Shown here piece after piece: positions 34,248 to 55,533 of a stretch of DNA of 64,000 bases. The notes under the pieces are model-generated. The model was not told where the DNA came from. It saw only the letters and a program-made list of their open reading frames with translations, and did not search any database. A program made the position numbers and the translations under genes. Positions within the stretch are counted from its first letter, which is position 1. Every line of letters starts with the position of its first letter. The DNA is from a virus. The stretch lies in the IMG/VR virus record IMGVR_UViG_3300033149_006345, positions 1-64,000 of that record; one strand, given 5' to 3'.

Positions 34248-34274
34248 TATTATATTCTACTAGGAGGTTTTAAT

Positions 34275-36135: not shown

Positions 36136-36450
36136 ATGGCTGTTAAGGTTAAACTGACAAAACTATCTTTGATTAGACGGTATAGAAAATCTGTATTGGA
36201 AGTAAGTGAGGCGGAAGCCGCCCGGATGATCGGATCAGGGCTGGCTGTAGCAGTAACTTCTTTTGATGGACCACCGGTTAATAAACTGGTAGCTTCTCCT
36301 GGTATTAAGAAAGAAGTAGCAGAAATAAAGGAGGCTGATACCGCAGAAAACCCTACTGGGAAAGCGGAGGAACCTCCGAAACCTCCGCAGAAAAACAAAA
36401 AGAAAAAATCGAAGAAGTCAAGGAAGAAAGTCAAGGTAAATATCCAGTAG
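36136..36450 (+). CDS. Small head-module protein with Lys-rich tail
   Basis: 104 residues. The first 55 residues (KLSLIRRYRKSVLEVSEAEAARMIGSGLAVAV) look like a small domain often found between capsid and connector genes of siphophages. The C-terminal half is Lys/Glu/Pro-rich and ends in a strongly basic tail. The next gene has no start codon of its own and overlaps this basic tail in the -1 frame, so part of the translation may continue into it. Confidence 0.65.
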   Translation: MAVKVKLTKLSLIRRYRKSVLEVSEAEAARMIGSGLAVAVTSFDGPPVNKLVASPGIKKEVAEIKEADTAENPTGKAEEPPKPPQKNKKKKSKKSRKKVKVNIQ

Positions 36451-37409
36451 CACGTTGGTCTCCTTCTTTACCCTATGCACTTTGTAAGGTTGGTTGGATA
36501 CAGGACGCTGAGGTATTAGGTGGTGCTGAATTATCCAATCTACAGATAATCAAACGAGGTCTGGAGTTAGGTTTTGCTATTAGGGTTATAACTCCGGACA
36601 GTTTTGATCGTGACTGGATTGCCATTTCTGACTTTCTCATTTTCAATAACTTTTATACCTTTCCATCAAATCTTTGGCATTATTTGTTGCAAGTCATTTG
36701 GGAGTATAGGAAGCCTTATGTAATATATTCTCATGATCATCGGGATATATATGGTGAGACTGCTAGACTCTCTTTTGCATGGCGTTGGTTTAAGCATTCC
36801 TTCTTGAATGTCTTTATTTCTCCGGCACATTATGCCAACTTTAAGAAATGTTTAGGCAGTGCTGCCGAGCCGCATTTTATCTTACCCCCACCGATAGACA
36901 CCGAATTTTTCTACCCCAGGGAAGAAGTTACTAGGAAACCAAAGACTGTTGTTAATCTTACCGGTAGATTGGTTAGCAGTAAGGGTCTGATGAATGTTTA
37001 TAAGTGGGCCGCAGCAAACCCTGACTATAAGGTAAATGTTTATACGAAGTATGCCGAAGGTACCAGCGGTAAGGTTTTGGAGACTAAGAATAATATAACT
37101 ATCCATAAACCTGTACCATATGCCCTTTTGCCGTATATCTACTCTGAACATGAGTATGTGTTACATCTTCCTGAAGATTGGGAAGCGGCGGGGAGGACAT
37201 TGGTAGAGGGTTTATTGTGTGGTTGGACATTGGTAGAGGGTTTATTGTGTGGTTGTATCCCGATTTGCAATAGTAAAGTAGGAGTTGCTAGTTTCGCACC
37301 GGATCTATTGTCATACGGTCGTGAAAATCTGGCTGTGATTTTGGAGGAAGGACAGTATATTTTTTGGTACAATATTTATCGGTATTTCCAGTTATTGGAG
37401 GAAAGATAG
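36408..37409 (+). CDS. Glycosyltransferase (GT-B, family 4/1-like), no own start codon
   Basis: The frame is open from 36339 to 37409 and encodes a GT-B protein: N-terminal KVGWIQDAEVLGGAELSNLQIIKRGLELG (36480-36570), then KTVVNLTGRLVSSKGL for the second Rossmann domain, and a donor-site AGRTLVEGLLCG. No ATG, GTG or TTG occurs between the upstream in-frame stop (36338) and the first Rossmann fold, so it must be entered by -1 frameshift from the head gene (A-rich codons 36388-36409) or unconventional initiation. A TTG at 36684 would delete the first domain. A 30-bp tandem duplication (37197-37256) repeats TLVEGLLCGW. Confidence 0.75.
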   Translation: MEEVKEESQGKYPVARWSPSLPYALCKVGWIQDAEVLGGAELSNLQIIKRGLELGFAIRVITPDSFDRDWIAISDFLIFNNFYTFPSNLWHYLLQVIWEYRKPYVIYSHDHRDIYGETARLSFAWRWFKHSFLNVFISPAHYANFKKCLGSAAEPHFILPPPIDTEFFYPREEVTRKPKTVVNLTGRLVSSKGLMNVYKWAAANPDYKVNVYTKYAEGTSGKVLETKNNITIHKPVPYALLPYIYSEHEYVLHLPEDWEAAGRTLVEGLLCGWTLVEGLLCGCIPICNSKVGVASFAPDLLSYGRENLAVILEEGQYIFWYNIYRYFQLLEER

Positions 37410-38411
37410 ATGCGGAAAAAGCTGTTGATTGGGGTATTCGTTGGTGAGTTAGGTTGGGAATATCTACGTTATCAAGGATATTTTAGACGCTATGCGAGAT
37501 TAAATTGTTTCAAAGAACAGGGGGATGAATGCATCGCTTTTACGTATTTTGGGCATGAGCTTTTTTATCACGATTTTTGCTCCGCTGTTTTTTCACATGA
37601 ATCTTGGTTAGATGGAAGAAGAGAGATAATAGGACCACCACATGCTTTTGGGCATATGCAAATGTCCTCAGCAGTATATGATTCTCTTTGTCAGTATATT
37701 TTGAATGTTGTGTCTCATTATTATGACCATGCACAATATGATATAGAGTTTGTAAAACATCCGCTGGGTGTTGCTCATAGGGCGAATTACTTTTTGCAGG
37801 ACTTTGTTGAGTTTTCGGTAAGTGAAAAAGAAATAATGTCGATTTGGATACAGTTGGAAAAGAAATATCTTATACCTGACGCACAAATTGTATGTGTTTT
37901 TCCCAGGATGAAAGGTGATAAAAGGGATTGGGGAGCCGGTAACTATGAGAACCTGATAGAGAGTTTATTGGGGTACGGTTTTGGGGTTGTTATTTGTGGG
38001 CATCCGCAACAGTCATTTTGTACGGATATGGAAACAAGATATGGGCTGTTGAATCTTACGGAGTTTCCAAGGCGTTATATTTTACCTCTTACTATTTGTG
38101 CTTTGGCGAAGAGTGCTTTCGCCTTTGGGGGACAAAGTGCCCTTCCACTTATTTCTTTAGGGCAGGGGGTACCAACAGTTATGTGGGGGTGCGAGCCTAG
38201 GCGTCATAGCCAGATTTATAATTGGAGGAAAACCGCTTGTTTATTTTTGCCTTCCCAGCAGTATGATATTTCCCCCAAAGAGGTATTAGGGGCTTTTTTC
38301 GATTGGAAGGATGGTGTTTCCCGAGATGATAGACTCTCCCCTTTCCATCTCCTTGATGCTTCATTGCTTAAAGAAGGGGAAATTTTACCCAATGAAAAGG
38401 TGAAAAGATGA
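37410..38411 (+). CDS. Glycosyltransferase (GT9-like / GT-B)
   Basis: 333 residues. Two Rossmann-like halves: the N-terminal IGVFVGELGWEYLRYQG and a C-terminal IVCVFPRMKGDKRDWGAGNYENLIE with AKSAFAFGGQSALPLISLGQGVPTVMWG, resembling the ADP-heptose transferase (GT9) donor site. It starts immediately after the upstream stop. Sugar donor and acceptor unknown. Confidence 0.72.
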   Translation: MRKKLLIGVFVGELGWEYLRYQGYFRRYARLNCFKEQGDECIAFTYFGHELFYHDFCSAVFSHESWLDGRREIIGPPHAFGHMQMSSAVYDSLCQYILNVVSHYYDHAQYDIEFVKHPLGVAHRANYFLQDFVEFSVSEKEIMSIWIQLEKKYLIPDAQIVCVFPRMKGDKRDWGAGNYENLIESLLGYGFGVVICGHPQQSFCTDMETRYGLLNLTEFPRRYILPLTICALAKSAFAFGGQSALPLISLGQGVPTVMWGCEPRRHSQIYNWRKTACLFLPSQQYDISPKEVLGAFFDWKDGVSRDDRLSPFHLLDASLLKEGEILPNEKVKR

Positions 38412-39322
38412 AGCCGAAGATTCTTATGGTAGCGGATGTTAAAGGTTGGGCTTGGTGGTATAAGGCGCAACAGGTAAAAAAGCACCTGGCGAATGAGTTT
38501 GATATTGATATTGTATGTGTTGTTCAAGAAGGGGCATTGCCGAAAGAACTGGCTTCCAAATATGATTTATTTTTTACTTTTGCACCGAAATATTTGAAGA
38601 TGCTTAGCAATATAGGGGTGCCAGTCAAGAAACGTATTTCTGGAATAACAGCTCATTTTTTGGGATTAGAAGATGATCTTCTACGCTTTCAGAATCATGT
38701 TGTTTACTTTCATGCAAATAGCCCTGCTTTGGTAAAAATTGCAGAGAGGTATTATCGTCATGTTTTTTACGTACCGAATGGTGTTGATGAGACCATTTTT
38801 TATCCCACCAATAGAAAGCCGAAGGATGTTTTTATTGTGGGTCACGTAGGGAAACCTACTGCAAGGAAAGGTTTTGACTCGATAATTATGCCTGCTTTCG
38901 AGAAGGCGTTTTCCGGTGGTAGATCGGTAGCAACATTGAAGGTTAACCAACGACGATATTATAATGCTTTGTCCCAGCCGGAGATGAGAGAATGGTATCA
39001 GGATGTAGACGTTTTGGTGTTTGCCAGCGATTTGGATGGAACTCCCAATCCGATGTTGGAGGGTGGCGCAATTGGTATTCCTTCTATAATAAATTGTATA
39101 GGAAATGCAGAGGAATTTATTAGCGATGGGGTAAATGGTTTCCTGATGCGGGAAAAGACGGTAGATGCTTATGCGGACAGATTACAATGGTGTTTTTATA
39201 ACAGAGAGCAATGTTGGAAAATGGGGGAAGAGGCAAGAAAGACGGTATTGTCCAGTTGGACTTGGAAACAGAAAGTAGAGAACTATAGGAATATGTTCAG
39301 AGAGATTTTGTCGGAGGAATAA
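38408..39322 (+). CDS. Glycosyltransferase family 4-like
   Basis: 304 residues of the GT-B fold. C-terminal domain: FIVGHVGKPTARKGFDSIIMPAF, then VDVLVFASDLDGTPNPMLEGGAIGIPSIINCIGNAEEFISDGVNGFLM, the EGGA segment being the donor-binding signature of GT4. The N-terminal domain is shorter than usual. Overlaps its neighbour by four bases. Confidence 0.85.
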   Translation: MKPKILMVADVKGWAWWYKAQQVKKHLANEFDIDIVCVVQEGALPKELASKYDLFFTFAPKYLKMLSNIGVPVKKRISGITAHFLGLEDDLLRFQNHVVYFHANSPALVKIAERYYRHVFYVPNGVDETIFYPTNRKPKDVFIVGHVGKPTARKGFDSIIMPAFEKAFSGGRSVATLKVNQRRYYNALSQPEMREWYQDVDVLVFASDLDGTPNPMLEGGAIGIPSIINCIGNAEEFISDGVNGFLMREKTVDAYADRLQWCFYNREQCWKMGEEARKTVLSSWTWKQKVENYRNMFREILSEE

Positions 39323-39323
39323 G

Positions 39324-39905
39324 ATGCCAATAATTAGAGAGCACGTTCACGATGGAACCGTTTGTTATATTGAGCCGGAGTCTATTCCGTATATTGAAAA
39401 AGTGTTGCGTGAGTTCAAACCACAATTGATTATTGAGTTGGGCACAGCTTTTGGTGGTTTTACCAAGTATCTTTGCAATTGGTTTCCTTCCACTCCTATT
39501 TATACTGTAGATGCCTTTTTATACGCCTCGAAAAAGGACTTGGCGTTATTTAGGAAGAGAAACGTTACTTTGTTGCTTACTGCTCAGTTGTTCGAGGGGG
39601 AAATGACCATTCCGCTTCTTTGCTCTTTGCCTCTACGTAAATTTCTGTTCTGTGATAATGGGCAAAAGGATATTGAGGTTAGATTATTTGGTGGCTATCT
39701 GCGCCCAGGTGATTTGCTGGCTGTACATGATTGGAGTGATTATAAGCAACGTTTGGAGGGGGCTTTTGAGGAGTTTGTTGCCCATCCCATCAATAAAGTT
39801 TTGAAAACGGAAGTCGATTCGGATGTCCGCTTTTTCTATAAGAAAGATAGGAGTGGTACTAGGGTTAAACCGGTAAACAAAACGGAGCATATATGGGGAA
39901 AATGA
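39324..39905 (+). CDS. SAM-dependent methyltransferase (cephalosporin-hydroxylase/MT fold)
   Basis: 193 residues. The SAM-binding motif LIIELGTAFGGFTKYLC (about residues 36-52), an acidic motif after VDA and the product strand GGYLRPGDLLAVHDWSDY match class I methyltransferases of the type found in polysaccharide and antibiotic clusters. Its target in this island is unknown; sugar O-methylation is inferred from context. The stop overlaps the next start region. Confidence 0.72.
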   Translation: MPIIREHVHDGTVCYIEPESIPYIEKVLREFKPQLIIELGTAFGGFTKYLCNWFPSTPIYTVDAFLYASKKDLALFRKRNVTLLLTAQLFEGEMTIPLLCSLPLRKFLFCDNGQKDIEVRLFGGYLRPGDLLAVHDWSDYKQRLEGAFEEFVAHPINKVLKTEVDSDVRFFYKKDRSGTRVKPVNKTEHIWGK

Positions 39906-40816
39906 TGCCTTGTGATATAGTTGTTTCTGTGACCAAAGGATATTTTTTGTATTTGCAAATCCTTCTGGAGAGTTTTAGCAAAAGCAATCCAGATTTTTCC
40001 GGTTGTATACATATTCTTATGTATGACGAAGACGACTGGTTTCTCTCGTATTTGCGATCATGTAAACTTCCTTATGAGATCCATAAAAGATTTTTGGGAA
40101 ATGCTGTTACCAGCAAGAAGGCAACTACAGCTATGCTGGAGCGGTTTTCCTTTGCATCTGATTTGAAGAGACCGGTAATGCTGGTGGATGCTGACACCAT
40201 TTTTCTAGGTAATGTTAATATGTTCTTCGATATTGCGGGTTTGGGTTATATTGTTGGATGTGGAAATGGGAAGGATATAGAGTTTGGTTTTGGTTGCAAA
40301 GCTAGTAGATTCAAATATGGGAGACCTTTTTGTTATCCTGTACCGAGCAACATACCGGAGGTGGGGGGGAAGTGCAACTATAGAACGATTGCATTGCCTT
40401 TGTTTTTAGATCCTGTAAGGTATGGTTTTTTGTTGAAGGACGTATATGATTATTATTTTTCTCAGGATGAAGACAGAAAGCTCGCCGAGTGGGTTATCTT
40501 GCAGGCACTTTTGGTTAAACACGACTTAATAGATAAGATTTTGCTTTTACCATCACATCGAACATCAAATAGTTATCATTTTATGGTGAACCCATTGTCT
40601 GGTGTATATAAGTATAAAGAGAGGTTTTTATCATCTGCCGGAGGTGATGTGCTTATATGTCATGGCCGGGTGCTAAGCGGTTTTTGGTGGAATGAAAGTA
40701 TGGAAGCGATGAGGAATTTCTTTAGACTTTTTTCCGATGAAGATTGGTTTTTGCAAATGTGGAAAGATAATGCCCAACAGTTGCGAAATATTGTCGGTAG
40801 TTACAGGAGAGATTGA
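39893..40816 (+). CDS. Glycosyltransferase (GT-A fold, GT8-like)
   Basis: 307 residues. An N-terminal strand MPCDIVVSVTKGYFLYLQILLESF, then the metal-binding LVDADTIFLGN (DxD motif) and a later SAGGDVLICHG, the pattern of GT8-type retaining transferases. Inference on family is moderate; the DxD motif is clear. Confidence 0.75.
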   Translation: MGKMMPCDIVVSVTKGYFLYLQILLESFSKSNPDFSGCIHILMYDEDDWFLSYLRSCKLPYEIHKRFLGNAVTSKKATTAMLERFSFASDLKRPVMLVDADTIFLGNVNMFFDIAGLGYIVGCGNGKDIEFGFGCKASRFKYGRPFCYPVPSNIPEVGGKCNYRTIALPLFLDPVRYGFLLKDVYDYYFSQDEDRKLAEWVILQALLVKHDLIDKILLLPSHRTSNSYHFMVNPLSGVYKYKERFLSSAGGDVLICHGRVLSGFWWNESMEAMRNFFRLFSDEDWFLQMWKDNAQQLRNIVGSYRRD

Positions 40817-41619
40817 TTATGTATCCTCTCATACAGGTTTTTCGTGGCAGTGTTAGTAGACCGTGGCAATTGAAAAGAACAACTCCGACTCTCTTTGATA
40901 GATTTAAGTATGCTGGAAAGATTGAATATCATTTAGTTGAAAGTGTTTTTGTCGATGAGTTGTCGGAAGAATGTCTTGAGTACGCAACATCGCAAGAGTA
41001 TATCACTCATGTTATAAAACCACAACGGGGCTATGGTTATGCTATAAAATGGTTTTTGGATAATATGTGCACAGCCCCATATATGATAAATTGGGAAGAT
41101 GATTATGCTGCTGTGACAGATATTCCTCTGACCGAATGTGTTGAGTTGATGGAGACATATCCTCATATAAATCAGATATGTTTTAATAAACGTAAAACAA
41201 TGTCTTATAAGTGGGCGAGACCTGGTCATGGTAGAGAAGATTTTAAGTGGCAGAAGGAACAGAGGGAATTTCCATTGACTGATGGAAGGATGATACCTCT
41301 AGTAGTGAAGGAGAAATGGTGGTTTGGTCCGGCTATTTGGCGAGTTTCCTTCGTCAAAGATAAGTTTGTTGGTTTTAGAGAACGAGTACACCACCGATTC
41401 AATGATGAAGTGTTGTTTCCTTTATTTGGTCCACGCCGTTTGCCTGATGGTTCTCCTTATGTTCCAACACCTACTGAGGTAGAAGAGGTCATTGGTTGTT
41501 ATATTTATGGGAGACATAAAGATCCTCCTATGTCTAGGCATATGCAGGAGGGGGATAGTATCTGGAAAAAGGAACTTCTAGATAAATGGCGGGCAGAGGG
41601 GAGGAAGGTATATTTATGA
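40813..41619 (+). CDS. Glycosyltransferase-like protein (GT-A type)
   Basis: 268 residues. The acidic motif MINWEDDYAAV could act as the metal-binding site of a GT-A enzyme, and a conserved-looking INQICFNKRKTMSY follows. It is paralogous to the next gene (IN-QI-FNKRKTM). Family not certain. Confidence 0.66.
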   Translation: MIMYPLIQVFRGSVSRPWQLKRTTPTLFDRFKYAGKIEYHLVESVFVDELSEECLEYATSQEYITHVIKPQRGYGYAIKWFLDNMCTAPYMINWEDDYAAVTDIPLTECVELMETYPHINQICFNKRKTMSYKWARPGHGREDFKWQKEQREFPLTDGRMIPLVVKEKWWFGPAIWRVSFVKDKFVGFRERVHHRFNDEVLFPLFGPRRLPDGSPYVPTPTEVEEVIGCYIYGRHKDPPMSRHMQEGDSIWKKELLDKWRAEGRKVYL

Positions 41620-42344
41620 TTATTGATCTTTTGGTTACGTCTGCAAGTCGTCCTGCTCTTCTGGAGAAGACACTCACTTCATTTTCGGGTAATGTGGAGT
41701 TAACACAACATTACTTTCGTGGCTTATTGCATGAGGATATATTAGAAGAGGAGCCATCCAAACAAATTATTGTGTGGGCATCTAGATTTTCCTTTTCTGT
41801 GGTTGAACACCATCAACCACATATTGGTTTAGGGCCAGCTATTGGTTATATGCTGGATAATTTTGTCACTTCAAAATATTTGTTTTATTTGCAAGATGAT
41901 TGGGAGTTGGTACGCCCATTGGATTTAGATTTGGCTATAGATTATATGGAAAAATACCCAATGATAAATCAAATTCGTTTTAATAAAAGGAAAACAATGC
42001 CTTTTGTCGGGGATAACCCTAAGAAAAGATGGTATAAGAAAGAGGTTTTATTTGGGGATAGAATTTTTACTGTGTCACCGCATTGGGTTTTGAATCCGGC
42101 TCTATGGCGAGTTGATTTTATTAGTGACAAGTTTGTTCCTTCTTACGAGTTCTGTAACTGGCGTACCAATGATGTTTTGAAACAAGGAAAAGGGCCAAAT
42201 GAAATAGATGCCGACTGGATTGCGGAAAATATGGGTACTTTTATTTGGGGTGGTATTGGTGAACCGCCCTTTTTCAGACATCTTGGGCATGGTCAAAGCG
42301 CATTAACAAAGACGGGCCAGGAGCGCCAGTATTATAGGAGATAG
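41616..42344 (+). CDS. Glycosyltransferase-like protein (GT-A type), paralog
   Basis: 242 residues. DLLVTSASRPALLEKTLTSF resembles a GT2-type N-terminus and YLQDDWELV is the likely metal-binding motif. MINQIRFNKRKTMPF matches the preceding gene, so the two are tandem paralogs. The start (41616) overlaps the previous stop (ATGA) with GGGGAGGAAGG upstream; the frame runs ten codons further upstream. Confidence 0.7.
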   Translation: MIIDLLVTSASRPALLEKTLTSFSGNVELTQHYFRGLLHEDILEEEPSKQIIVWASRFSFSVVEHHQPHIGLGPAIGYMLDNFVTSKYLFYLQDDWELVRPLDLDLAIDYMEKYPMINQIRFNKRKTMPFVGDNPKKRWYKKEVLFGDRIFTVSPHWVLNPALWRVDFISDKFVPSYEFCNWRTNDVLKQGKGPNEIDADWIAENMGTFIWGGIGEPPFFRHLGHGQSALTKTGQERQYYRR

Positions 42345-42350
42345 TGAGAG

Positions 42351-42905
42351 ATGGGCGACGGATCAGGGGATTTGCAGAAAATATGGCATGTATATGTTGG
42401 TAAACATATTGTCTCCGGTTCTGTTTTGGATGTTGGGGCCGGATTAGGCAAGAGTAAAGGAAGATTGCTTATTGGTGCAGATGAAGTTGTTACTCAGGAT
42501 ATTGATAGGGCAAGGATGTTAGATGTTGATGTTATTTGCCCATTAGAAGAGATAACAGAAATTTTTGATTATGTTACTGCTTTTGATGTTATTGAGCATG
42601 TACCTCATCCGGTTAGCTTTTTGACGCATATGTGGAAGCGTTCCAGGAAAGGTATATTTGTCACTACCCCAAATGCTGTAGTTTACCCTCATCCTTGGCA
42701 TTTTACTCCTGCAAAGTTTGCTCTTCTTTTATCTGGTTTTGTTAGAGACAGACAGGAGGCCGAGCGGGTTGTTTTTGCTTACTTCTGTCGTTGTAAGACA
42801 GAGCAAGAGGATATTATAATTGAATCCACGTGGTCGGACTTTCTTCGAGCTGACTCCCCGATTGTTGGGTTGGGTGTATTGGTGCAGAGGAGAGAAAATG
42901 CGTGA
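42351..42905 (+). CDS. Class I SAM-dependent methyltransferase
   Basis: 184 residues. SAM motif I SVLDVGAGLGKSKGRLL (about 25-40), motif II VVTQDID, and DVIEHVPHPVSFLTHMW, typical of small methyltransferases in glycan clusters. Probably modifies a sugar or lipid; target unknown. Confidence 0.78.
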   Translation: MGDGSGDLQKIWHVYVGKHIVSGSVLDVGAGLGKSKGRLLIGADEVVTQDIDRARMLDVDVICPLEEITEIFDYVTAFDVIEHVPHPVSFLTHMWKRSRKGIFVTTPNAVVYPHPWHFTPAKFALLLSGFVRDRQEAERVVFAYFCRCKTEQEDIIIESTWSDFLRADSPIVGLGVLVQRRENA

Positions 42906-43926
42906 CTTTTACCGTATTTTGGTCTTATCTAAATTTCGCAATTACATCTCTTATTTTTCACATGGTGTTATTGAGGGAGCAATACGCAACGGCTGGCGTG
43001 CCAATTGGGTTGAGTTGCAGAAGCTAAATGATGCCGCCAATTATAAGGAGCATTGCGAGTCCATTTTGGAGCAGATAGTGCGCTATCGACCTCATGTAAT
43101 TTTCTGCAATGGCATTTTTGGGGAAGACTCAGAAGCCTTTCCGGGAATATTTGATGTGCTTCTTAAAATCAGGAAAAGATTTGATGATTGCAAGATTGTT
43201 TATCATATGGGTGATCCGAGAAATGAACCTAGGTATAGGAATGACATTTCCAAACTAGTTGATATAGCTCTTTGTAATTTTGGTGGTGAGCTATTAGAGA
43301 AATTCTCGGATATTTGGAAAGTTCCTTGTTATCATTGGCCCTACGCTTGCTGGCAGTTTCCCCGATATGTAGAGAAAGAAAAGAGATATGATTTATTATA
43401 TTTGGGTAATGTGTCAGAACACCCTCGTTATAAGGACCGCACTCCATTTGTTCATTATCTTTTGGATAATGCTTCTATGGAAGTGAGAAGATTTCCTGAT
43501 GAAGAAATAGGCAATACACGCTTCTTTTTGGAAGATATTGTTCCCTATGCTAGAGGGTTATTGAGTTTAGCAGCCACTTATGATCTACCTTACTACATAG
43601 ATGCCCGTCCTTTTGAATATCTTGGTTTTGGGGGTTTGGTTTTTCGTCCAATGTCTGCTGGTTTGACGGATATTTTTGTACCTTTTTATCACTTTATTCC
43701 TTTTGATTTTATCCCCGGAGAGCATAAGTATACTATGAAGTCTTTGGAGGAAGTATATTATGAATACACGACAGTGAAGCGAGATCAGGCGGAGAAAATA
43801 CGAAGACAAGGTTTTGAGTATACCCAAAATTATCATAATTATAGGATGCGAGTTAGAGATGTTATTTTGCTTTTGGAAGGAGTAATAGAGAGGCCCCTCG
43901 TCTACTTGTCTGATTTTGACTTTTGA
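42898..43926 (+). CDS. Glycosyltransferase of the CgeB-like/GT1-2 type
   Basis: 342 residues. It has a HMGDPRNEPRY segment, VPCYHWPYACW near the domain boundary and a C-terminal PYYIDARPFEYLGFGGLVF, the donor-site layout of CgeB/Glyco_trans_1_2-like enzymes. The start at 42898 follows AGAGGAGAGAAA. The next gene is a clear paralog (shared WKVPCYHWPYA). Confidence 0.75.
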   Translation: MRDFYRILVLSKFRNYISYFSHGVIEGAIRNGWRANWVELQKLNDAANYKEHCESILEQIVRYRPHVIFCNGIFGEDSEAFPGIFDVLLKIRKRFDDCKIVYHMGDPRNEPRYRNDISKLVDIALCNFGGELLEKFSDIWKVPCYHWPYACWQFPRYVEKEKRYDLLYLGNVSEHPRYKDRTPFVHYLLDNASMEVRRFPDEEIGNTRFFLEDIVPYARGLLSLAATYDLPYYIDARPFEYLGFGGLVFRPMSAGLTDIFVPFYHFIPFDFIPGEHKYTMKSLEEVYYEYTTVKRDQAEKIRRQGFEYTQNYHNYRMRVRDVILLLEGVIERPLVYLSDFDF

Positions 43927-43943
43927 TGATTGGAGGTTGTGGG

Positions 43944-44918
43944 ATGCAACCAAAAAGACCCATACGCCTAGCTTGTTTAGGAGATTGGTCAAATTATTTT
44001 AGCTATTTTCTGTATGGGAGCCTGGAGGGGGCTATATTAAATCAGTGCTGGTTTCGTCCTATTGATATACGCTCTCCAGTGAAGGTTATAGTGCGAAATA
44101 TTTTGGAGTTTCGTCCAGACATTCTTTTGGCGCATATGTTATTTTCTGAAGGAGTACGACCTATCCCGGAAACATTGGATTATTTGGCGACGGTTCGCAA
44201 GAAAGTAGGTACGCGAGTTTTTTATCATTTGGGTGATGCCAGAACAGTTCCCCGTTATGCAGGTGATATCAGTATGGCAGTTGATGGTTGTTTGGTTAAC
44301 CAGACCAACTTGACTCCTTTTGAAGAAATATGGAAAGTTCCTTGTTACCATTGGCCCTATGCTGCATTTAAGCAGGCTAGAATTGCTGGGAAAGTGAAGG
44401 AGTTTGAGCATCCACTTATATTTACCGGTAGGCTAAGTGACAAGGGGATACATAGGAACAGGACCATTTTTATTAGGGAACTCCAGCGCCTAATGCCTGT
44501 TAAAGTATATCCAGATGAGAAGTATCCAGATACAAAGCTATTGACAGCGGAAATTGCAGCTTCAGCAACAGCAATCCTTGGGGTTTGTGCCGGATATGAT
44601 ATTCCTGGTTATGCTGATGTGCGTCCGTATCAGTATCCTGGGGCGGGGGGTGTTTTGTTTCAACGGTATTATTTGGGATTGGAAGAGATTTTTCTGGATG
44701 GTAAACATATGATCTTCTTTTATGATGATGATCCAAGTAACTTCGAGGAGCTTTATAATAAATGGGTGTTTGGCGAGTTTTCGTCTCTTCTCTCTTCAAT
44801 ACGGCAGGAGGCTTTTTCTTTCCTTCAGAGATATCATACTTATGCCAACCGAATAAAGGATGTTTTGAATATTGTTTATTATGGCGTGCCCCCAAAGATA
44901 AAACTTGCGGATCTGTAG
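43944..44918 (+). CDS. Glycosyltransferase of the CgeB-like type, paralog
   Basis: 324 residues. Shares YFSYFLYGSLEGAI, HLGDARTVPRYAGDIS and IWKVPCYHWPYA with the preceding protein, and its end repeats the ADVRPYQYPGAGGVLF donor-site pattern. The start at 43944 follows TTGGAGGTTGTGGG; the frame begins seven codons earlier. Tandem duplication produced the pair. Confidence 0.75.
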   Translation: MQPKRPIRLACLGDWSNYFSYFLYGSLEGAILNQCWFRPIDIRSPVKVIVRNILEFRPDILLAHMLFSEGVRPIPETLDYLATVRKKVGTRVFYHLGDARTVPRYAGDISMAVDGCLVNQTNLTPFEEIWKVPCYHWPYAAFKQARIAGKVKEFEHPLIFTGRLSDKGIHRNRTIFIRELQRLMPVKVYPDEKYPDTKLLTAEIAASATAILGVCAGYDIPGYADVRPYQYPGAGGVLFQRYYLGLEEIFLDGKHMIFFYDDDPSNFEELYNKWVFGEFSSLLSSIRQEAFSFLQRYHTYANRIKDVLNIVYYGVPPKIKLADL

Positions 44919-44927
44919 GAGGAGCGA

Positions 44928-46238
44928 ATGCAGTTGGAGCGTATTTATGAAAAGTTAATGATACCAGAGACCGAAGATCGTGTTATTTTGGATGGAAAAG
45001 AATATTCAGCCAAGGTTGGTAAGCATAGCATTTGGATTCCTGAATTGGAGTTGAAGTTGCCATTTCAGTATAACGGCCATTTTGTTGAATATTACCATTG
45101 GTCAAGAGGGCAACATGCAGAGCGAATAAAAAATTTTACCTTTGGAACGGAACTCCCTTATGCCATGTCTTCTCTCTATAATATTGTTGAGGAATGGGCT
45201 ATTTTTTACTTGCTGGCAAAACGGAAGTTGGCTCCTCCAATTGGTGGTTTTGTCTTCTTCAAGAATATACTTTCCACTTTTCCAAAAGACGTCATGCGTT
45301 GTGACCCAAAGGGCGGATATGGTTTTTTTATGAGAGATGCTTCCAAGTTGGATAAGAAATCTTTCTCACCGGATTATTTTAAGCAGGAGTTTGTGTCAAG
45401 TGGTATATTATATTGCTCCGAGACAGCATTGGGGGATATTTGTGAGGAGGGGAGAAATAATCATATAAATGGGTATATTGTTGACATTAGGAGAAGCATC
45501 CAGGATGCAATTCATCTTCGTAAATTGCCCGGATTGGATGAGATTGCGACAGATACCTATTTAACCAGCATTTGCAAAGAAATTTTTTATCAGGATGATC
45601 CTGGGAAATTGAAAGAAAGAATTGCTGTATATGGTCAATTTCCTTTCAAACAAAGAAATAAGCCTTATCAAAGCTATTGGCTCAGGAATGAATATGTAGA
45701 AGGGGCTAGGGCTACTGAGGAAAGGTTGTCGTTGATGGGTATTCCAACTGAGCTTCCTCCTGAAACATCCGTGTTGGATTTGGGTTGTTGTATTGGTGCT
45801 ATTTGTCAAGGAATGTATTTAAGAGGGGCTAGAGATATTTTGGGATTGGAGTATCAACTAGAATATTTAGCTTGCGCCAGAGATTTAGCGAGATATAATG
45901 GTCATCAAATTTCTTACTTACAATATGATCTCTCTGATAGAGAACAGCTAGATAAGGTGATTGCTCATCTAAACAAATATTTTCCCAATGGAATTGACTA
46001 TGTTTTTGCTTTGGCTATTTATAAGCATATTGGTTTGGATAATTTGTTGTACCTTTTGGAGAACATTTCTTTCAGAAATCTATATGTTGAGAGTTCATCT
46101 GTTGAATCGGTGAAAACTACGGGACATGCCAAAGAATGTAATAAACAGTTGAATAAGCGTTGGAAAACAAAGTTTTTGGGGTATACTACTGATCGCAGTA
46201 AACGAGCGATATGGTATTGTGAAGGAGGGGAAAAATGA
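44928..46238 (+). CDS. Large protein with C-terminal SAM-dependent methyltransferase
   Basis: 436 residues. The C-terminal ~180 residues are a class I methyltransferase (SVLDLGCCIGAICQGMYLRGARDILGLE, then DYVFALAIYKHIGLDNLLYLL). The first ~250 residues are not recognised and contain an aromatic-rich segment (WSRGQHAERIKNF) and a phosphotransferase-like IVDIRR. Possibly couples modification of a lipid- or sugar-linked substrate to methylation. GTAGGAGGAGCGA precedes the ATG. Confidence 0.72.
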   Translation: MQLERIYEKLMIPETEDRVILDGKEYSAKVGKHSIWIPELELKLPFQYNGHFVEYYHWSRGQHAERIKNFTFGTELPYAMSSLYNIVEEWAIFYLLAKRKLAPPIGGFVFFKNILSTFPKDVMRCDPKGGYGFFMRDASKLDKKSFSPDYFKQEFVSSGILYCSETALGDICEEGRNNHINGYIVDIRRSIQDAIHLRKLPGLDEIATDTYLTSICKEIFYQDDPGKLKERIAVYGQFPFKQRNKPYQSYWLRNEYVEGARATEERLSLMGIPTELPPETSVLDLGCCIGAICQGMYLRGARDILGLEYQLEYLACARDLARYNGHQISYLQYDLSDREQLDKVIAHLNKYFPNGIDYVFALAIYKHIGLDNLLYLLENISFRNLYVESSSVESVKTTGHAKECNKQLNKRWKTKFLGYTTDRSKRAIWYCEGGEK

Positions 46239-46486
46239 GTCGGATTATTACCAAACCCACACCTAATTTTTATACCTGTAGGTTGCTTGAGCCGGTAAGT
46301 GAAGCAGAGTATTACTATAAGCGTTGTGCAGAGAAGAGCAAAGGACGCTGTATTGATCATGTGTATATGAAGAAGAGGGGAGAGGATTCGACCAAATTGC
46401 AATCTTTGCGGTACAAGAAGACGATATGGACCAGGCAAGCGGCAAAAGCCCATTGTGATCAGAGAGGAGGAAGGTTTGATGTTTGA
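46235..46486 (+). CDS. Small Cys-containing hypothetical protein
   Basis: 83 residues, basic, with the end WTRQAAKAHCDQRGGRFD, which resembles the tail of some phage head or portal-associated proteins. GAAGGAGGGG precedes the ATG. It lies in the sugar island but shows no glycosyltransferase feature; it might be a displaced structural-type small protein. Confidence 0.55.
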   Translation: MSRIITKPTPNFYTCRLLEPVSEAEYYYKRCAEKSKGRCIDHVYMKKRGEDSTKLQSLRYKKTIWTRQAAKAHCDQRGGRFDV

Positions 46487-47063
46487 GTTTTTGGGTGGCT
46501 TCAACCATATTTTGGTTACTGGAGTGCAACGATCCGGCACTACTATTTGTGCTCAGATGATTGCACATGATTTAGGGTATAAATGGTATAAGGAAGAGAA
46601 AGTAAAAGGTGAAGATTGGATAGCCTTGTATAAGTTCTTGACTGATTTTCGTGGAATGAAGTTGGTGCTACAATGCCCTAGATTTTGCTATTGTATCGAG
46701 CGAGTAAGTCTACCTTCAAATGCCATAGTTTTCATGGTTAGGAATAAGAGGGAGGTGTTGAAAGCACAGAGGGATATAGGATGGGATGCTTCAAAAGAAA
46801 TGCAACATCCTTGTTACCGAGGTTATAAAGATATCGTTGAAGCCAAGAAGCAATATTGGGAAACAGTTCAGAAACATGGCATCTATAATGCTTTTGAAGT
46901 GAATTATCGCTCTTTGGCAAAGCATCCATTGTGGATTCCGGCCAGGTTGCGGAAAGATTTTGCATCAATGCAGACATCTTTAGCTTCTCCTTATACCTTT
47001 GATGACTCCCCTGAAGATAAGAAGTTGCGGGAGAAACTGTACAAGAGAGGAAGGATTGTCTGA
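46479..47063 (+). CDS. Sulfotransferase-like P-loop protein
   Basis: 194 residues. HILVTGVQRSGTTICAQMI is a sulfotransferase-type 5-prime phosphosulfate loop (RSGTT), followed by VFMVRNKREVLKAQRDIGWD, similar to the 3-prime phosphate motif region. The length and layout fit a small sulfotransferase or a related P-loop kinase-like enzyme. It would need PAPS from the host if it is a sulfotransferase. AGAGAGGAGGAAGG lies upstream of the ATG at 46479. Confidence 0.68.
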   Translation: MFEFLGGFNHILVTGVQRSGTTICAQMIAHDLGYKWYKEEKVKGEDWIALYKFLTDFRGMKLVLQCPRFCYCIERVSLPSNAIVFMVRNKREVLKAQRDIGWDASKEMQHPCYRGYKDIVEAKKQYWETVQKHGIYNAFEVNYRSLAKHPLWIPARLRKDFASMQTSLASPYTFDDSPEDKKLREKLYKRGRIV

Positions 47064-47911
47064 TGTTTGGTATGAGTGTTACTGTTCCATACCGTAATCG
47101 CTTTAAGTGTTTGGATAGGTGCCTTCGTCCATTATTGCGACAGAAGACAAATTTTCCTTTTGAGGTAGTGTTTGTAGATTATGGAAGCACCGATGATACT
47201 CTGAGCTATCTTTGTAAGTCTTATTCTGCTGAGATAGCTTCTAATAAGTTGGTGCTTGTTCATTATCCTGCCGACGCATTTAATTTGGCAGGAGCACGTA
47301 ATGTTGGTATTGCTTTCTCTAATTATCCTTTGATTTTTACGTTTGATATTGATTCTATCTGCCTATCTGATACCATTTTGCAAGAGGTGTATGATTTTTA
47401 TTTGGATATGGAGCAAAAAGCAAAGAAAAATATACAAGATTTAGAACAATATAAACCACCATTGCTGACAAAAAATATACCTTACACTTATGATGAATAC
47501 AAGTATATCCCCTATGGACATATTGTCAGGACTGTTGGTTGGGGAAATTGTTTGTTGCATAAAGATATATTTTTTGCTATTGGTGGTTTGGACCATATGA
47601 CTTTTCGGGGCAAAGGATATGAAGATATGGCTTTTATGGTGTTGTGCTTGAGGAATGGTTATTATCTGGTTCAGTATCCTGATGTGCTATATCGAAAGAA
47701 GAATACGAAACTGGTAAATTTCAAGGACCATGAGTTGTCACCGGAAGAAAGGGTGGAAACATATGATGTATGGGAGGATGGTTGTGACGCTGGGGCTAGA
47801 GAACGGAGTTACAGACGCTTTCGGCTGTTGGTAGAATCCCCTGGAGTACGGTATAATTCAGTAGTTGATTGGAATCTTCTCAGGAAGGAAGGATATAGAA
47901 TAAATATATAG
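47063..47911 (+). CDS. Glycosyltransferase family 2
   Basis: 282 residues. VTVPYRNRFKCLDRCLRPLL, then VVFVDYGSTDDT, LAGARNVGIAFSNYPLIFTFDIDS (metal-binding DxD) and WGNCLLHKDIFFAIGGLDHMTFRGKGYEDM, the full order of motifs of an inverting GT2 enzyme, similar to capsule and chondroitin-type transferases. Confidently a GT; substrate unknown. Confidence 0.88.
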   Translation: MFGMSVTVPYRNRFKCLDRCLRPLLRQKTNFPFEVVFVDYGSTDDTLSYLCKSYSAEIASNKLVLVHYPADAFNLAGARNVGIAFSNYPLIFTFDIDSICLSDTILQEVYDFYLDMEQKAKKNIQDLEQYKPPLLTKNIPYTYDEYKYIPYGHIVRTVGWGNCLLHKDIFFAIGGLDHMTFRGKGYEDMAFMVLCLRNGYYLVQYPDVLYRKKNTKLVNFKDHELSPEERVETYDVWEDGCDAGARERSYRRFRLLVESPGVRYNSVVDWNLLRKEGYRINI

Positions 47912-47921
47912 GGGGTTATGG

Positions 47922-48125
47922 ATGATAGTTTATGTGGATGGAAAACTCTATCATGGGGCAAGAGGTTTGGTTGCTGTATGTTTTAGTGATCGGGATTTGG
48001 AACACATTCGCAATATGGCACCGGGTTGTAGAATTTATTGTGAGTATGATGCTGATTTATGGCAGGATGAAACAGAAGTTGCTTCTATTTTGCACGAATT
48101 TATGAAGGACTGCGAGAAGGAGTGA
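47922..48125 (+). CDS. Small hypothetical protein of the sugar island
   Basis: 67 residues, acidic, alpha/beta, unknown (VYVDGKLYHGARGLVAVCFSDRDLEHIRNMAPG). It ends one base before the next gene's region and overlaps its ribosome site. No motif recognised. Confidence 0.6.
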   Translation: MIVYVDGKLYHGARGLVAVCFSDRDLEHIRNMAPGCRIYCEYDADLWQDETEVASILHEFMKDCEKE

Positions 48126-48127
48126 AA

Positions 48128-49135
48128 ATGCGCTTCATCTTCAATCTGGAAAGATGCGGTGCAGCCAATAACGGTGGCACTAAGACCATTTTTGCTAGCG
48201 CCAATACTTTAGTAGATATGGGCCATGAGGTCTTTGTTGTTTCTGATATTGAGAATAAATTTACATGGTTCCCCTTGAAAGCAGAGTTTATTCATTTTCG
48301 AGGTAAATCCAAAGAGTATCCTAGTGCAGACGCTCATATTGCTACTGGTTTTCAAACGGTCAAGCCTGTTTTGGCTTCGCCTTCTTTTACCGGTGAGAGG
48401 GTGCATTGGATTCGGGCACATGAGACTTGGATTATGAAAGACCCTACATTGGTATATCATGCCCCGACGAGGAAGCTGGTCAACAGCAAGGGTCTTCAGC
48501 AATTTATAAAAGCAAATTATGGGATTGACTCAATCATTTTATATCCTGGGATAGAGTATGATGTATTCAGGAATGTTGGGAAATATGACATTAGTTATCC
48601 CATTGGTATTGGAGCTTTATATAACCAAAAGGCACGGAAACGTTTTCCTTGGGTGGTGGACTCTTTTCGTTTCTTAAAGAGGACATATGGTCGCGCGGTT
48701 AGGTTTATTCTGTTTGGTAATGATGGTCGTCCCATAAACTTAGAGAAACTGTTTCGTTTTTCGTATGTACAACAGCCAGCCCAAGAGCAATTGGTGCATC
48801 TTTATAATCAATGCACATTTTGGCTAGCTCCTACAGAATCAGAAGGGTTGCATATTTGCCCGATGGAGGCAGCGTTATGTCGCTCCGTTGTTATTGGTAC
48901 CGATGCTCCTTTGGCGGGTATGAGCGATTGGTTGGATGAAACCACAGGTTTTGTTTCGGAAAATGATTATGACAGCTACCTCAAAATGGTTTTATTTGCT
49001 TTCGAGCAAGAACCCAGCAAGCTGGCAGCTTTGAGTATTGCTGCCAGAGATAGAATTGTCCAAAAGATTGGTTCACGCAGGCGGAATATGGGCAAACTGG
49101 TTCATCTGATAAAATTTTGGAGGAATGAAAGATGA
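48128..49135 (+). CDS. Glycosyltransferase (GT-B, GT4/1-like)
   Basis: 335 residues. N-terminal NNGGTKTIFASANTLVDMGHEVFVVSD; C-terminal APTESEGLHICPMEAALCRSVVIGTDAPLAGMSDWLDETTGFV, the donor-binding EGLHICPMEAALC segment of GT4-like enzymes. The start at 48128 has GAGAAGGAGTGAAA upstream. Confidence 0.85.
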   Translation: MRFIFNLERCGAANNGGTKTIFASANTLVDMGHEVFVVSDIENKFTWFPLKAEFIHFRGKSKEYPSADAHIATGFQTVKPVLASPSFTGERVHWIRAHETWIMKDPTLVYHAPTRKLVNSKGLQQFIKANYGIDSIILYPGIEYDVFRNVGKYDISYPIGIGALYNQKARKRFPWVVDSFRFLKRTYGRAVRFILFGNDGRPINLEKLFRFSYVQQPAQEQLVHLYNQCTFWLAPTESEGLHICPMEAALCRSVVIGTDAPLAGMSDWLDETTGFVSENDYDSYLKMVLFAFEQEPSKLAALSIAARDRIVQKIGSRRRNMGKLVHLIKFWRNER

Positions 49136-50154
49136 GAGCATTATTACTACGACAAAAGGTGCCCCCTGATGCCAATCGTATAACTTTTCCCTCGTTTGAG
49201 GAAATAGATGATATGTGGATGTTGCTTTTTTATAGAGCATGTAAAAGGCTTGGTTTCTCGTCGGTCGAGGTTTGGAATTGGGGTGGTACGAGGTATGTGG
49301 AATATGATGCGGAGGACTCCGTTAGATTTATTGAGCGGTGGCTCCCGAATTATTGGCCGGATGGTGCCTCTATTTTCTCCCCCGATGATGTTCAATTGGT
49401 TTTTGCTCGTGGTGGTTTTAGGGAATATATACCAATTCTGAATTATTTTAAGAATGCCGTGAAGATTTATTATGGAGCTGGTAAAAGACATAACCCTAAG
49501 ATGTTGGATGACCCGACTGACTATAATGCTGTTTTATGTGATACGAAGGAGCAGGAAAAAGAATTGACTTCGGCGGGATATACCGCTTTTACTTTCATAA
49601 AACCAGCATGTGATACTATTTTCCACCCTTGGAAAGCTGAGAAATATTACGACGTGGTTTTTATAGCCAACGCCCCGCAACGCCAGTTAAAGGGACATGA
49701 TTTTCTTTTTGATGTATTGAAGGGAACGCACTTACACCTTCTTGTTATTGGGATTGCTGATGCTTCTGTTATCTCCTGTGCCACTTTACGGGGAGTAAAC
49801 TCTACATTTACTGGTTGGGTACCCAGGAAGGTAATACCTCAGTTGGCTTGTAGAGCCAAGATAGGGGTATGTTGCTCTACTTCTTATGAATCGTGTCCAC
49901 GGGTTATCCCGGAATATTTAGCTATGGATATCCCGATATTAGTGCGGTCTAGTGTTCGCTTCAATACGGATTTATATGTCACGCCGGAAACGGGAATGTC
50001 GGCAGATGATCATACTTTCCTCAAGACCCTTGAGTATATGGTACATAATTATACTAAGTTTACACCCAGGAAGTATTACGAAGAGCATTTGTCCCTTGAA
50101 GTTGCATCTGTTTATTTTAGCGGACTGTTACGTCCATTTATTAGAGGTTTGTAG
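49132..50154 (+). CDS. Glycosyltransferase (GT-B, GT1/4-like)
   Basis: 340 residues. DVVFIANAPQRQLKGHDFLFDVLKG opens the C-terminal Rossmann domain; ESCPRVIPEYLAMDIPILVRSSVRF is the donor-site segment. The N-terminal domain contains KIYYGAGKRHNPKML and CDTKEQEKELTSAG, a pattern shared by many bacterial glycan transferases. Overlaps its upstream neighbour by four bases. Confidence 0.75.
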   Translation: MRALLLRQKVPPDANRITFPSFEEIDDMWMLLFYRACKRLGFSSVEVWNWGGTRYVEYDAEDSVRFIERWLPNYWPDGASIFSPDDVQLVFARGGFREYIPILNYFKNAVKIYYGAGKRHNPKMLDDPTDYNAVLCDTKEQEKELTSAGYTAFTFIKPACDTIFHPWKAEKYYDVVFIANAPQRQLKGHDFLFDVLKGTHLHLLVIGIADASVISCATLRGVNSTFTGWVPRKVIPQLACRAKIGVCCSTSYESCPRVIPEYLAMDIPILVRSSVRFNTDLYVTPETGMSADDHTFLKTLEYMVHNYTKFTPRKYYEEHLSLEVASVYFSGLLRPFIRGL

Positions 50155-50156
50155 AC

Positions 50157-51107
50157 ATGCGTTTTTTGCGTGGTACAGATCGGTTATCAATAATTACTAT
50201 AGATTATGCCAACCGCTATAATATAGGAAATTATCATCTTAATGCCGAGTTAGCAAGTAACTTCAAGGAGGTGCGTTATTATTTCTTGGAGAATGGTTTT
50301 TCTTTGGATGACCCCTTCTTGTTGTCCAGCGACATGATTTTTATTAACAGACCACTACGAAAGACGATACAGAGAACAGTTGAGGGGGAAACCTACCGAA
50401 AGCTGAATTTCAAGTCTATTGATGGTATTGTGGTCCTTTTTGATACTGACCCACAGGTTTTAAGTATAAAAGAGCGGGCCAAAGTGATAGATAATATTGG
50501 CGTGGATCTGTTGCTATTGGGAAATAATGATGCTAGAGTTGTAGAACATAACAGGTTTTTTGGTGGACGTATTTTATGCAAGTGGCTCCCCTTTGGAGTG
50601 AATCTAGATCACTTTTACGATATGGGGATAGAGAGGGATATTGTAAGTGGTTTTATCGGCTCATATAGAAACTATTATTATGGCAAAAGAAAGGAGATGG
50701 TAGAGTATTTACGAGAGAAATTGGGCAACCGTTTCTTTTGGAAGAGGATGATAAAAGAGGAATATCTTTTGTTCCTAAATAGAATAAAACTGTTTGTCTT
50801 AGCAAATGACTTAACTGGTGGTTTCTTTATGAAGCATTTGGAAAGTATGGCTTCTGGTTGTTTGTTAGTGGCTGAATATACTCCTTTGTTAGAACGTTTG
50901 GGTTTTGTGCCTTCTGAAGATCTTATTGTATGGAATACTTTGCAGGAATGTGAGCAAGCTATTTTGTATTATGCTGTTTATGAGGGCAATCGGGGGCAGA
51001 TAATAGAAAATGCGAAGAAGAAGATCAAGGAGCATCATACATGGGCACACAGGGTAAAGTGGTTGTTAACTTGGGCAAGTGGAAAAAACCTAGATATAAG
51101 CTATTAA
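50157..51107 (+). CDS. Glycosyltransferase (CgeB/GT1-2-like)
   Basis: 316 residues. C-terminal FFMKHLESMASGCLLVAEYTPLLERLGF then LIVWNTLQECEQAILYY is the typical donor-site and switch-region sequence of CgeB-like glycosyltransferases. It overlaps the next gene by 67 bp, so the end of this gene or the start of the next may be tuned by coupling. Confidence 0.78.
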   Translation: MRFLRGTDRLSIITIDYANRYNIGNYHLNAELASNFKEVRYYFLENGFSLDDPFLLSSDMIFINRPLRKTIQRTVEGETYRKLNFKSIDGIVVLFDTDPQVLSIKERAKVIDNIGVDLLLLGNNDARVVEHNRFFGGRILCKWLPFGVNLDHFYDMGIERDIVSGFIGSYRNYYYGKRKEMVEYLREKLGNRFFWKRMIKEEYLLFLNRIKLFVLANDLTGGFFMKHLESMASGCLLVAEYTPLLERLGFVPSEDLIVWNTLQECEQAILYYAVYEGNRGQIIENAKKKIKEHHTWAHRVKWLLTWASGKNLDISY

Positions 51108-52168
51108 ACCGTGTTGCTGTGAATTTTGGTAATGGGCTGGGTAATTTTGTAATGTTGACGCCTACTCTGCATGGTTTATCTCGGATGTATAATGCCGCTA
51201 TCGACTTGGTTTTTGATGATACATGGCGGGATAGTAGACGGAAGTCTGTAGAGGAATTGTTCGCAAGTTGTTTTTATGGCGGTGAGATTATAAATTTTAC
51301 CGGCCCATCTTCACTTGATTTGGAGCGATATAAGGCGATCTATTGGACTTCTCATGGGGAGGTCAATCCTGCTTGGGAGTATATGCGGGAAGTAGCGACG
51401 ATTAAAGCCTCATTTGAGGATGAGGATGATACCTGGAGACAAGTCAAAATACATGAGGTTGATTTTTATCTGAAGCCACTTATTAAACTTGGTTATATTA
51501 AACGACCGACCCCTCAGTTGTTTGGTTTTAACGATGTCAGAAGGGTGGTAAGAAAGGGTTGGAAGACCAGGAGAGGACAAGTTTTCAATGGGCTTTTGCC
51601 TTTGGTTATCGGTTTCTGTAATGGGTTTTTTGGAGAGGAAGACAGCGTTTGGTCAAGGAAAGCATGGCCGTATTTTGGTGAATTGGCGTTGATGTTGTAC
51701 GGGTTTTTTGGGGATTTGGTTGATATTCAATTATTTGGAAAAGGAGCACAAGAGAGACGATGGGCAGAAACGGTAGTATCTATGCTAGAAGCTAAGAATT
51801 ACTATGCAAAAAATTTTGTTGACAGGCTTACTTTACCTCATACAATAAAGAAGATGGGTGATGTAGATATTTTTGTTACTACGGATACTGGTTTAATGCA
51901 TGTGGCTGATGCCATGGGGATACCGTCGGTGATTTTATTTGGGGCGACATTGGCGAGTAAGAACGGACCATACACTATGCTACGAAAGCGACTGGTTCAT
52001 AGTTTGGAAGGCTGTGCTCCCTGTCAGAACACTTACCATTTCCATCTGTGCAAAGATTACAAATGTATGAGGTCCATCACTCCGGCAGATGTTTTTCCAC
52101 AAATTTTGGCGTTGTGTAAATCTATGGGCTTTGTATTTCCTATTTTAAGGGGGCGCAAATGGCGATAG
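51041..52168 (+). CDS. Glycosyltransferase family 9-like (heptosyltransferase type)
   Basis: 375 residues. N-terminal RVAVNFGNGLGNFVMLTPTLHGL (GT9 nucleotide-sugar site), C-terminal VDIFVTTDTGLMHVADAMGIPSVILFGATLASKNGPY, which is the signature of ADP-heptose:LPS transferases. The tail has Cys-rich HSLEGCAPCQNTYHFHLCKDYKCM. It is the last gene of the island and overlaps the connector gene by ten bases. Confidence 0.85.
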   Translation: MGTQGKVVVNLGKWKKPRYKLLNRVAVNFGNGLGNFVMLTPTLHGLSRMYNAAIDLVFDDTWRDSRRKSVEELFASCFYGGEIINFTGPSSLDLERYKAIYWTSHGEVNPAWEYMREVATIKASFEDEDDTWRQVKIHEVDFYLKPLIKLGYIKRPTPQLFGFNDVRRVVRKGWKTRRGQVFNGLLPLVIGFCNGFFGEEDSVWSRKAWPYFGELALMLYGFFGDLVDIQLFGKGAQERRWAETVVSMLEAKNYYAKNFVDRLTLPHTIKKMGDVDIFVTTDTGLMHVADAMGIPSVILFGATLASKNGPYTMLRKRLVHSLEGCAPCQNTYHFHLCKDYKCMRSITPADVFPQILALCKSMGFVFPILRGRKWR

Positions 52169-55207: not shown

Positions 55208-55215
55208 TAGACCGC

Positions 55216-55533
55216 TTGAGGATATATTTTGACATTATGAAAGCCTCAAGCGGAGCGATTACTTTTAAGGAGCTAAGAGAGATGCCATTCGCACAGCTAT
55301 CTCTCTTAGCTCGTGTAGCCAAGGCTACGCAAATAGAAGATGAAATGCGGTTCATTGGCGGGGTTGCCACTGGTACCTCCGGTAATGCGAAGCATATGGA
55401 TAGTCTTGAATTTAGGTATAACCAACTTTTATTTATAAAACCGACTACAGATAGAAACAAGTTACTACAGATCAAGGAGAGAATGAAGAAAAAGCAACAA
55501 AAAACAGTTGGCTCCAAACGACGAGGTAAATAA
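55216..55533 (+). CDS. Tail assembly chaperone T part, read by -1 frameshift
   Basis: 105 codons downstream of the G stop, in the -1 frame. The sequence FKELREMPFAQLSLLARVAKATQIED then a basic end (KERMKKKQQKTVGSKRRG) is typical of the T domain that binds the tape measure protein. A TTG near 55216 or ATG at 55237 is open but has no good ribosome site, so frameshift fusion to the upstream gene is more likely. The stop is directly followed by the tape measure gene. Confidence 0.75.
   Translation: MRIYFDIMKASSGAITFKELREMPFAQLSLLARVAKATQIEDEMRFIGGVATGTSGNAKHMDSLEFRYNQLLFIKPTTDRNKLLQIKERMKKKQQKTVGSKRRGK

Follow-up and report, generated by a model that had tools for sequence, protein, structure and literature searches.

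Glycans have been shown on capsid and tail subunits of the mycobacteriophages Che8, Corndog and Myrna, according to reports that cite Freeman et al. 2023 (PMC12363180, PMC12619734, PMC11256854). Virion glycosylation is established in a few mycobacteriophages, and the literature consulted says little on how sugars are targeted to the shell. Frameshifting is described for other virion genes: in phage SPP1 it gives a minority of the tail protein an extra C-terminal domain (gp17.1 and gp17.1*, about 3:1; PMC6316719, PMC8718954), the tail assembly chaperones of lambda type use a -1 frameshift (Xu et al. 2004, as reported in PMC2884959), and in the PRFect set of 2,476 annotated phage frameshifts 2,397 belong to tail chaperones and 79 to hypothetical proteins (PMC10885494). 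Neither a frameshift-made glycosyltransferase nor a phage with a glycosylation island among its head genes was found in the literature searched, most subscription papers being outside the search. Here we describe an island of about 16 kb rich in glycosyltransferases (GTs), located in the virus record IMGVR_UViG_3300033149_006345 (IMG/VR; 76,591 bases), of which bases 1–64000 were analysed and are called the window. The first enzyme of the island, GT1, lies in a frame without a usable start, next to the capsid gene. We estimate a probability of roughly 0.63 that the island constitutes a late virion-glycosylation pathway directed at the phage head.

Glycosyltransferase genes in the head module

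The open reading frames (ORFs) spanning 36.4–52.17 kb all lie on the + strand; no gap between them exceeds 10 bases, and overlaps of 4–86 bases are most common. On the left side (27753–35555) are the terminase, the portal, a protease/head ORF and the major head protein, followed by a decoration-like gene at 35589, and on the right side the head-tail adaptor (52159, phrog_442) and a neck protein (53068, phrog_5). The preliminary description had placed a multi-enzyme glycan island between the capsid and connector genes on the late strand, and this is borne out by the + strand ORFs and the phrog-typed flanks. From strand and spacing we infer that the GTs are expressed late together with the virion genes.

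The 33-kb contig IMGVR_UViG_3300010413_002165 (G001, treated in two pieces, L008 and L010) has an island at the same capsid-connector site, in which 13 window island proteins have homologues, in the same order and at 34–60% identity. Since the order is kept at this level of protein identity in a second virus, the island is more than a chance assembly, and we regard it as almost certainly genuine with a conserved order; the random GT order in relatives, which the preliminary description had named as a finding that would refute it, is not what G001 presents. Three window island genes are absent from G001, which in turn has a GT2, a radical-SAM/B12 protein, an epimerase, a GT29-like protein and a full sulfotransferase (L010:11992, 1e-12), and also homing-endonuclease-like ORFs, read by eye. 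The core order is therefore kept while the decorating enzymes turn over. The major capsid gene of G001 is interrupted by about 0.6 kb (L008 5386–7464) and is intact in the near-identical L015, which together with several HNH-like ORFs in or near the island suggests homing elements.

With GT1 profiles 45 further viral loci with a related head-side island were found, some of them near-duplicates, and by this search design GT1 is present in every locus. A GT9 homologue is located on the same strand in 22 of the 23 loci having at least 8 kb of sequence downstream of GT1, a count that includes G001, whose GT9 is in L010. The adaptor homologue follows directly after GT9 in G001, L062 and L066, GT9 is the third island gene in others such as L022, and the gene set between GT1 and GT9 is variable across the loci. 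Among the candidate capsid genes upstream of GT1, 28 of 29 match phrog_10, and in L062, L063 and L066 a decoration-like gene lies between the capsid gene and GT1 as in the window; the 35589 gene has homologues at the same place in these three and in L008, L015 and L025. The recurrent GT9 and the many distant relatives, like the domain fused to GT1 and the -1 frameshift treated below, were absent from the preliminary description.

No match to the island was found at the DNA level among 50,697 phage records, nor by tblastn of GT1, an in-frame fusion and the N-terminal domain against the same records. Among 84,980 prokaryote genomes two pattern-based scans, from which divergent copies can escape, gave no confirmed relative, so no host can be named. 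A viral-contig search with the 436-residue methyltransferase as query missed its relatives. In the 109-kb virus IMGVR_UViG_3300009529_000001 (L012) the homologues of 49132 and 48122 adjoin each other and lie close to portal- and capsid-like genes; neighbouring genes look by eye like those of sugar-nucleotide enzymes, and one product matches the methyltransferase of Che8 gp108 at 41%.

The genes of the island and its flanks in the window are the following.

34275..35555, +, major head (capsid) protein, HK97-type (phrog_10, E 7e-56)
35589..36041, +, small decoration-like protein, left island flank (phrog_5707, 2e-7)
37410..38411, +, probable glycosyltransferase (TIGR04372 9.8e-5, under cut-off; homologue in the relative 37%)
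38408..39322, +, GT4-type glycosyltransferase (PF00534 2.6e-13)
39324..39905, +, methyltransferase-like protein, rhamnosyl O-methyltransferase/CmcI (PF04989 1.6e-3, under cut-off)
39893..40816, +, GT8-like glycosyltransferase (PF01501 0.02, under cut-off)
40813..41619, +, probable GT-A without family match, paralogue of 41586
41586..42344, +, probable GT-A without family match, paralogue of 40813 (intact homologue in the G001 island, 35% identity)
42351..42905, +, S-adenosylmethionine (SAM) methyltransferase-like protein (PF13489 4.5e-6, under cut-off)
42820..43926, +, GT-B glycosyltransferase, Glyco_trans_1_2, paralogue of 43923 (PF13524 4.8e-6)
43923..44918, +, GT-B glycosyltransferase, Glyco_trans_1_2 (PF13524 6.4e-7; 55% to the relative)
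44928..46238, +, protein with C-terminal methyltransferase-like domain (PF13649 7e-5, under cut-off; 49% to the relative)
46455..47063, +, sulfotransferase-like P-loop protein (PF13469 1.5e-4, residues 19–39 only; 48% to the relative)
47063..47911, +, GT2 glycosyltransferase (PF00535 1.5e-13)
48122..49135, +, GT4-type glycosyltransferase (PF13692 3.5e-8; homologues in L010, L062, L066 and L012)
49132..50154, +, GT4-type glycosyltransferase (PF13692 3.7e-8; homologues in L010, L062, L066 and L012)
50157..51107, +, GT-B glycosyltransferase (PF13524 2.5e-13; 55% to the relative)
51041..52168, +, GT9 heptosyltransferase-like protein, last island gene in the window (PF01075 6.8e-14; profile match to 1psw, heptosyltransferase II, 3.5e-9)
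52159..52776, +, head-tail adaptor, right island flank (phrog_442, 4e-15; same position in L010, L062 and L066)

The island thus holds GT-B, GT2, GT8-like and GT9 enzymes together with three methyltransferase-like proteins and one P-loop sulfotransferase-like protein, several of the family assignments falling below curated cut-offs. The preliminary description was right about a GT island and too low in its count of some ten, as about 13 known or probable GTs are present: clear Pfam GT domains are at 38408, 42820, 43923, 47063, 48122, 49132, 50157 and 51041, and weak matches at 36684, 39893 and 37410. Its three SAM methyltransferases correspond to methyltransferase-like proteins at 39324, 42351 and 44928, all under the Pfam cut-offs, and its suggestion of sulfation finds a weak P-loop protein in the window and a full sulfotransferase in relatives. 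PDB sequence searches with two island proteins gave nothing. An ORF of 83 residues (46235–46486) within the island resembles a domain found in L062:283, L063:1583 and L027:7133, which are ORFs on the protease side.

A capsid-adjacent domain joined to GT1

The first GT is not a free-standing gene: its reading frame, open from 36339, overlaps ORF 36136–36450 and offers a start codon only at 36684, within the GT domain. The features at this junction are the following.

36136..36450, +, N-terminal part of the putative recoded fusion, ending at a TAG if unshifted
36364..36388, +, perfect 7-bp hairpin GCGGAGG/CCTCCGC immediately 5' of the A-rich stretch with the candidate slippery sites (z -0.26 for the local structure, not significant)
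36396..36408, +, candidate -1 slippery sites C_AAA_AAG (36396) and G_AAA_AAA (36402)
36339..37409, +, GT1 open frame, GT-B (GT4-like) glycosyltransferase, in register -1 to ORF 36136–36450, conserved domain from 36486
37196..37255, +, 30-base in-frame tandem duplication in GT1, copies at 37196 and 37226, within a conserved C-terminal motif

In 45 other loci the GT1 frame is continuous into an N-terminal extension of about 60–140 residues with an in-frame start; in most cases this extension is a small strand-helix domain. A hidden Markov model (HMM) built from the N-terminal domains of L062, L063 and L066 matches the window ORF 36136–36450 at 1.9e-9 and its L008 counterpart at 1.1e-10, and these two are the top matches among all ORFs of the window, L008 and L003. 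In the model of the fused homologue in L062 (5664–6773; predicted local distance difference test, pLDDT, 89.5) a small domain of strand-helix-strand-helix-strand order is connected by a disordered linker to a GT-B domain, which has HepE, BshA and PimA as best PDB matches (E ~1e-11 to 1e-9; 12–17% identity). Read from this homologue, which is 39–40% identical to the GT1 of the window, GT1 is predicted to have the two-Rossmann GT-B fold. The model of the window ORF shows the same small domain at residues 1–40 (pLDDT 92–95) followed by a disordered Lys-rich tail, and the order of elements in the N-terminal domain is alike in the two models.

Glycosylation of a head protein is favoured because of the position in the head module, the GT1 fusion beside the capsid gene, the soluble enzymes and the late strand, and a head protein is the somewhat more probable acceptor of the glycan, as far as gene content and order can tell. 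The main alternative, unlikely in our estimate yet the best of those considered, is that late in infection the island alters the host envelope (lipopolysaccharide (LPS) core, O-antigen or capsule), either to exclude superinfecting phages or to aid release, since membrane LPS is a target of GT9 and GT4 enzymes too. Both families are typical of LPS-core synthesis, the islands of G001 and L017 include an epimerase, and the sugar-nucleotide-enzyme look-alikes mentioned above occur in the distant L012 virus. The island proteins are without a strong transmembrane segment (top 19-residue hydropathy 1.87, where a membrane control reaches 2.23), which is compatible also with an action on the envelope, as LPS-core enzymes are soluble and peripheral. 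However, no Wzx/Wzy-type family, flippase, polymerase or lipid-carrier GT was matched among the island proteins in the Pfam scan, and an envelope target leaves unexplained the placement in the head module, found with phrog_10 in 28 of the 29 upstream genes tested, as well as the fusion of GT1 to a capsid-adjacent extension and the late expression.

Expression of GT1 and a model for head glycosylation

In the window the first ATG, GTG or TTG of the GT1 frame is codon 115 (36684), inside the GT domain that begins at 36486, so that at least 66 codons of the domain precede any such start in the window family. In a simple frequency model for the late genes of the window the chance of a start-free stretch is about 0.006 for 66 codons and 1.4e-4 for 115 codons. 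The same -1 split without ATG, GTG or TTG is found in L008, L015 and L025, where L008 and L015 are near-identical at the locus; this form is thus represented by four contigs from four metagenomes and three lineages (window, L008/L015 and L025). An assembly error in the window as the cause of the lacking start codon was rejected, since the three further contigs share it.

Between the window and L008 the 66 start-less domain codons show 71% amino acid identity, with a proportion of non-synonymous differences (pN) of 0.20 against 0.85 (saturated) for synonymous ones (pS), whereas the other two frames over the same stretch are 28–29% identical and contain stops. Judged from these sequences, the start-less codons are translated and under strong purifying selection. 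In L008 versus L025 the changes before the Lys run are 22 synonymous and 5 non-synonymous in the ORF frame but 2 and 25 in the GT frame, while after the stop of the ORF they are 17 and 1 in the GT frame against 2 and 16 in the ORF frame. The 57-base overlap holds 2 changes, compared to 27 in 228 and 18 in 153 bases, and a 6-base indel leaves both frames intact. The constrained frame therefore switches at AAGAAAAAGAAGAAAAAGAAA, where the pattern of substitutions changes frame. The candidate slippery heptamers of the window are C_AAA_AAG and G_AAA_AAA, and L008 and its near relatives have G_AAA_AAG twice; L008 also has a Shine-Dalgarno-like GGAGGAA about 10 bases upstream and a local structure z of -3.3. 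As a control served the tail assembly chaperone pair, probably an ordinary -1 frameshift, which overlaps in -1 register at A_AAA_AAG in the window (54821–55533) and at A_AAA_AAA in L010 (18889–19553).

On the pattern of frames and substitutions, -1 recoding very probably produces the GT1 fusion in the window family. Ribosomal slippage by -1 on AAA-AAR codons is most consistent with the data, but transcriptional slippage on the runs of 5–6 A may act instead. We consider it improbable that the split is unprogrammed, reflecting a rare non-AUG start for GT1, decay or a shared assembly error. An ATG in another frame (~36471), just before the GT domain, could give the impression of a one-base error, and the GT1 of the window has its 30-base duplication, but the shared -1 register in four contigs, the purifying selection on start-less codons and the clean switch of the constrained frame are not expected from such a split, and in L008 the GT frame also lacks ATT, ATC, ATA and CTG from its opening to the GT domain.

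Under recoding, a fraction of the ribosomes would slip -1 on the lysine run (~36396–36408), so that the free N-terminal domain is made in excess and a minority of the product carries the glycosyltransferase. The N-terminal domain would tether GT1 to a head protein, either the capsid or the decoration protein, on which GT1 would place the first sugar; GT9 and the variable GTs, methyltransferases and sulfotransferase might then lengthen the glycan and cap it, working in the cytoplasm during assembly and from host sugar nucleotides. The variable middle of the island could diversify the sugars of the particle surface against receptors, antibodies or grazers. More tentatively, and with the odds against it, a frameshift-fixed minority of a head-associated protein bearing a GT-B enzyme could be incorporated into the prohead, or dock on it, and seed the glycans of the shell, the GT1–GT9 module being widespread in uncultured tailed phages.

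Several points weigh against head glycosylation by a recoded GT1. Neither a glycan nor an acceptor is visible in the sequence, and most decorating enzymes vary between relatives. The N-terminal domains gave no family in the Pfam scan, with one subthreshold DUF6260 match in one of them, and the fold search with the model gave weak matches to small uncharacterised phage proteins (best E 0.03), so that a head-binding role rests on gene position. In L023 and L024 the GT1 extension differs, being Cys-rich and zinc-ribbon-like, and the fusion partner can therefore be swapped. The -1 form is known from only three distinct lineages, the heptamers are imperfect in P-site re-pairing and not of the strongest type A_AAA_AAG, and local structure z-scores reveal no stimulatory RNA structure common to the window and L008. 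The duplication in the window GT1 adds 10 residues in a conserved motif (EAAGRTLVEGLLCG) and is absent in the relative; it may represent an impaired enzyme, a natural variant or an assembly artefact.

Glycosylation of phage DNA (T4-like or on hypermodified pyrimidines) is very unlikely, for although the early region encodes a methanogen-type thymidylate-synthase-superfamily protein that could be a hydroxymethylase (19291–19971, - strand; TIGR03283 7e-28, under cut-off), a nucleotide-modification-associated domain match and an MT-A70 methylase, no TET/JBP or T4-type DNA glucosyltransferase is among 25 of the 27 families matched by 30 early proteins, and the GTs of the island are numerous, late and linked to the head genes.

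If GT1 acts on the head, its joining to a capsid-adjacent extension in tens of diverse uncultured phages offers a testable targeting mechanism, in which frameshifting in one lineage would set the dose of the fusion. The order capsid gene, domain-GT1 fusion, variable genes, GT9 and adaptor could also serve as a signature for finding glycosylated phages in metagenomes.

Comparison with known systems

Like the window phage, Che8 encodes its own GTs, and gp108 is a GT fused to a methyltransferase. The GTs of Che8 (GT2 with methyltransferase, GT2 and GT25) are in contrast few and located close to the 3' genome end, and this type has neither a capsid-adjacent fusion nor a frameshift; between Che8 gp108–gp110 and the window proteins the best match has an E of 0.04, and none matches the GT1 or GT9 profiles. 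GT1 shares its predicted GT-B fold with the GT4-family enzymes HepE, BshA and PimA, but at 12–17% identity, and differs by its head-adjacent N-terminal domain. With the lambda-type chaperones, a pair of which is also present in the window phage, GT1 has in common the -1 overlap and a downstream frame without a usable upstream start, although the genes are different and the product there is a chaperone. The SPP1 tail protein is alike in that a minority gains a C-terminal domain by frameshifting, but there the shift is +1, the protein belongs to the tail and the added domain is FN3 instead of an enzyme. With GT1, recoding would link an enzyme to a domain from the head module, and not a tail chaperone or a decoration domain.

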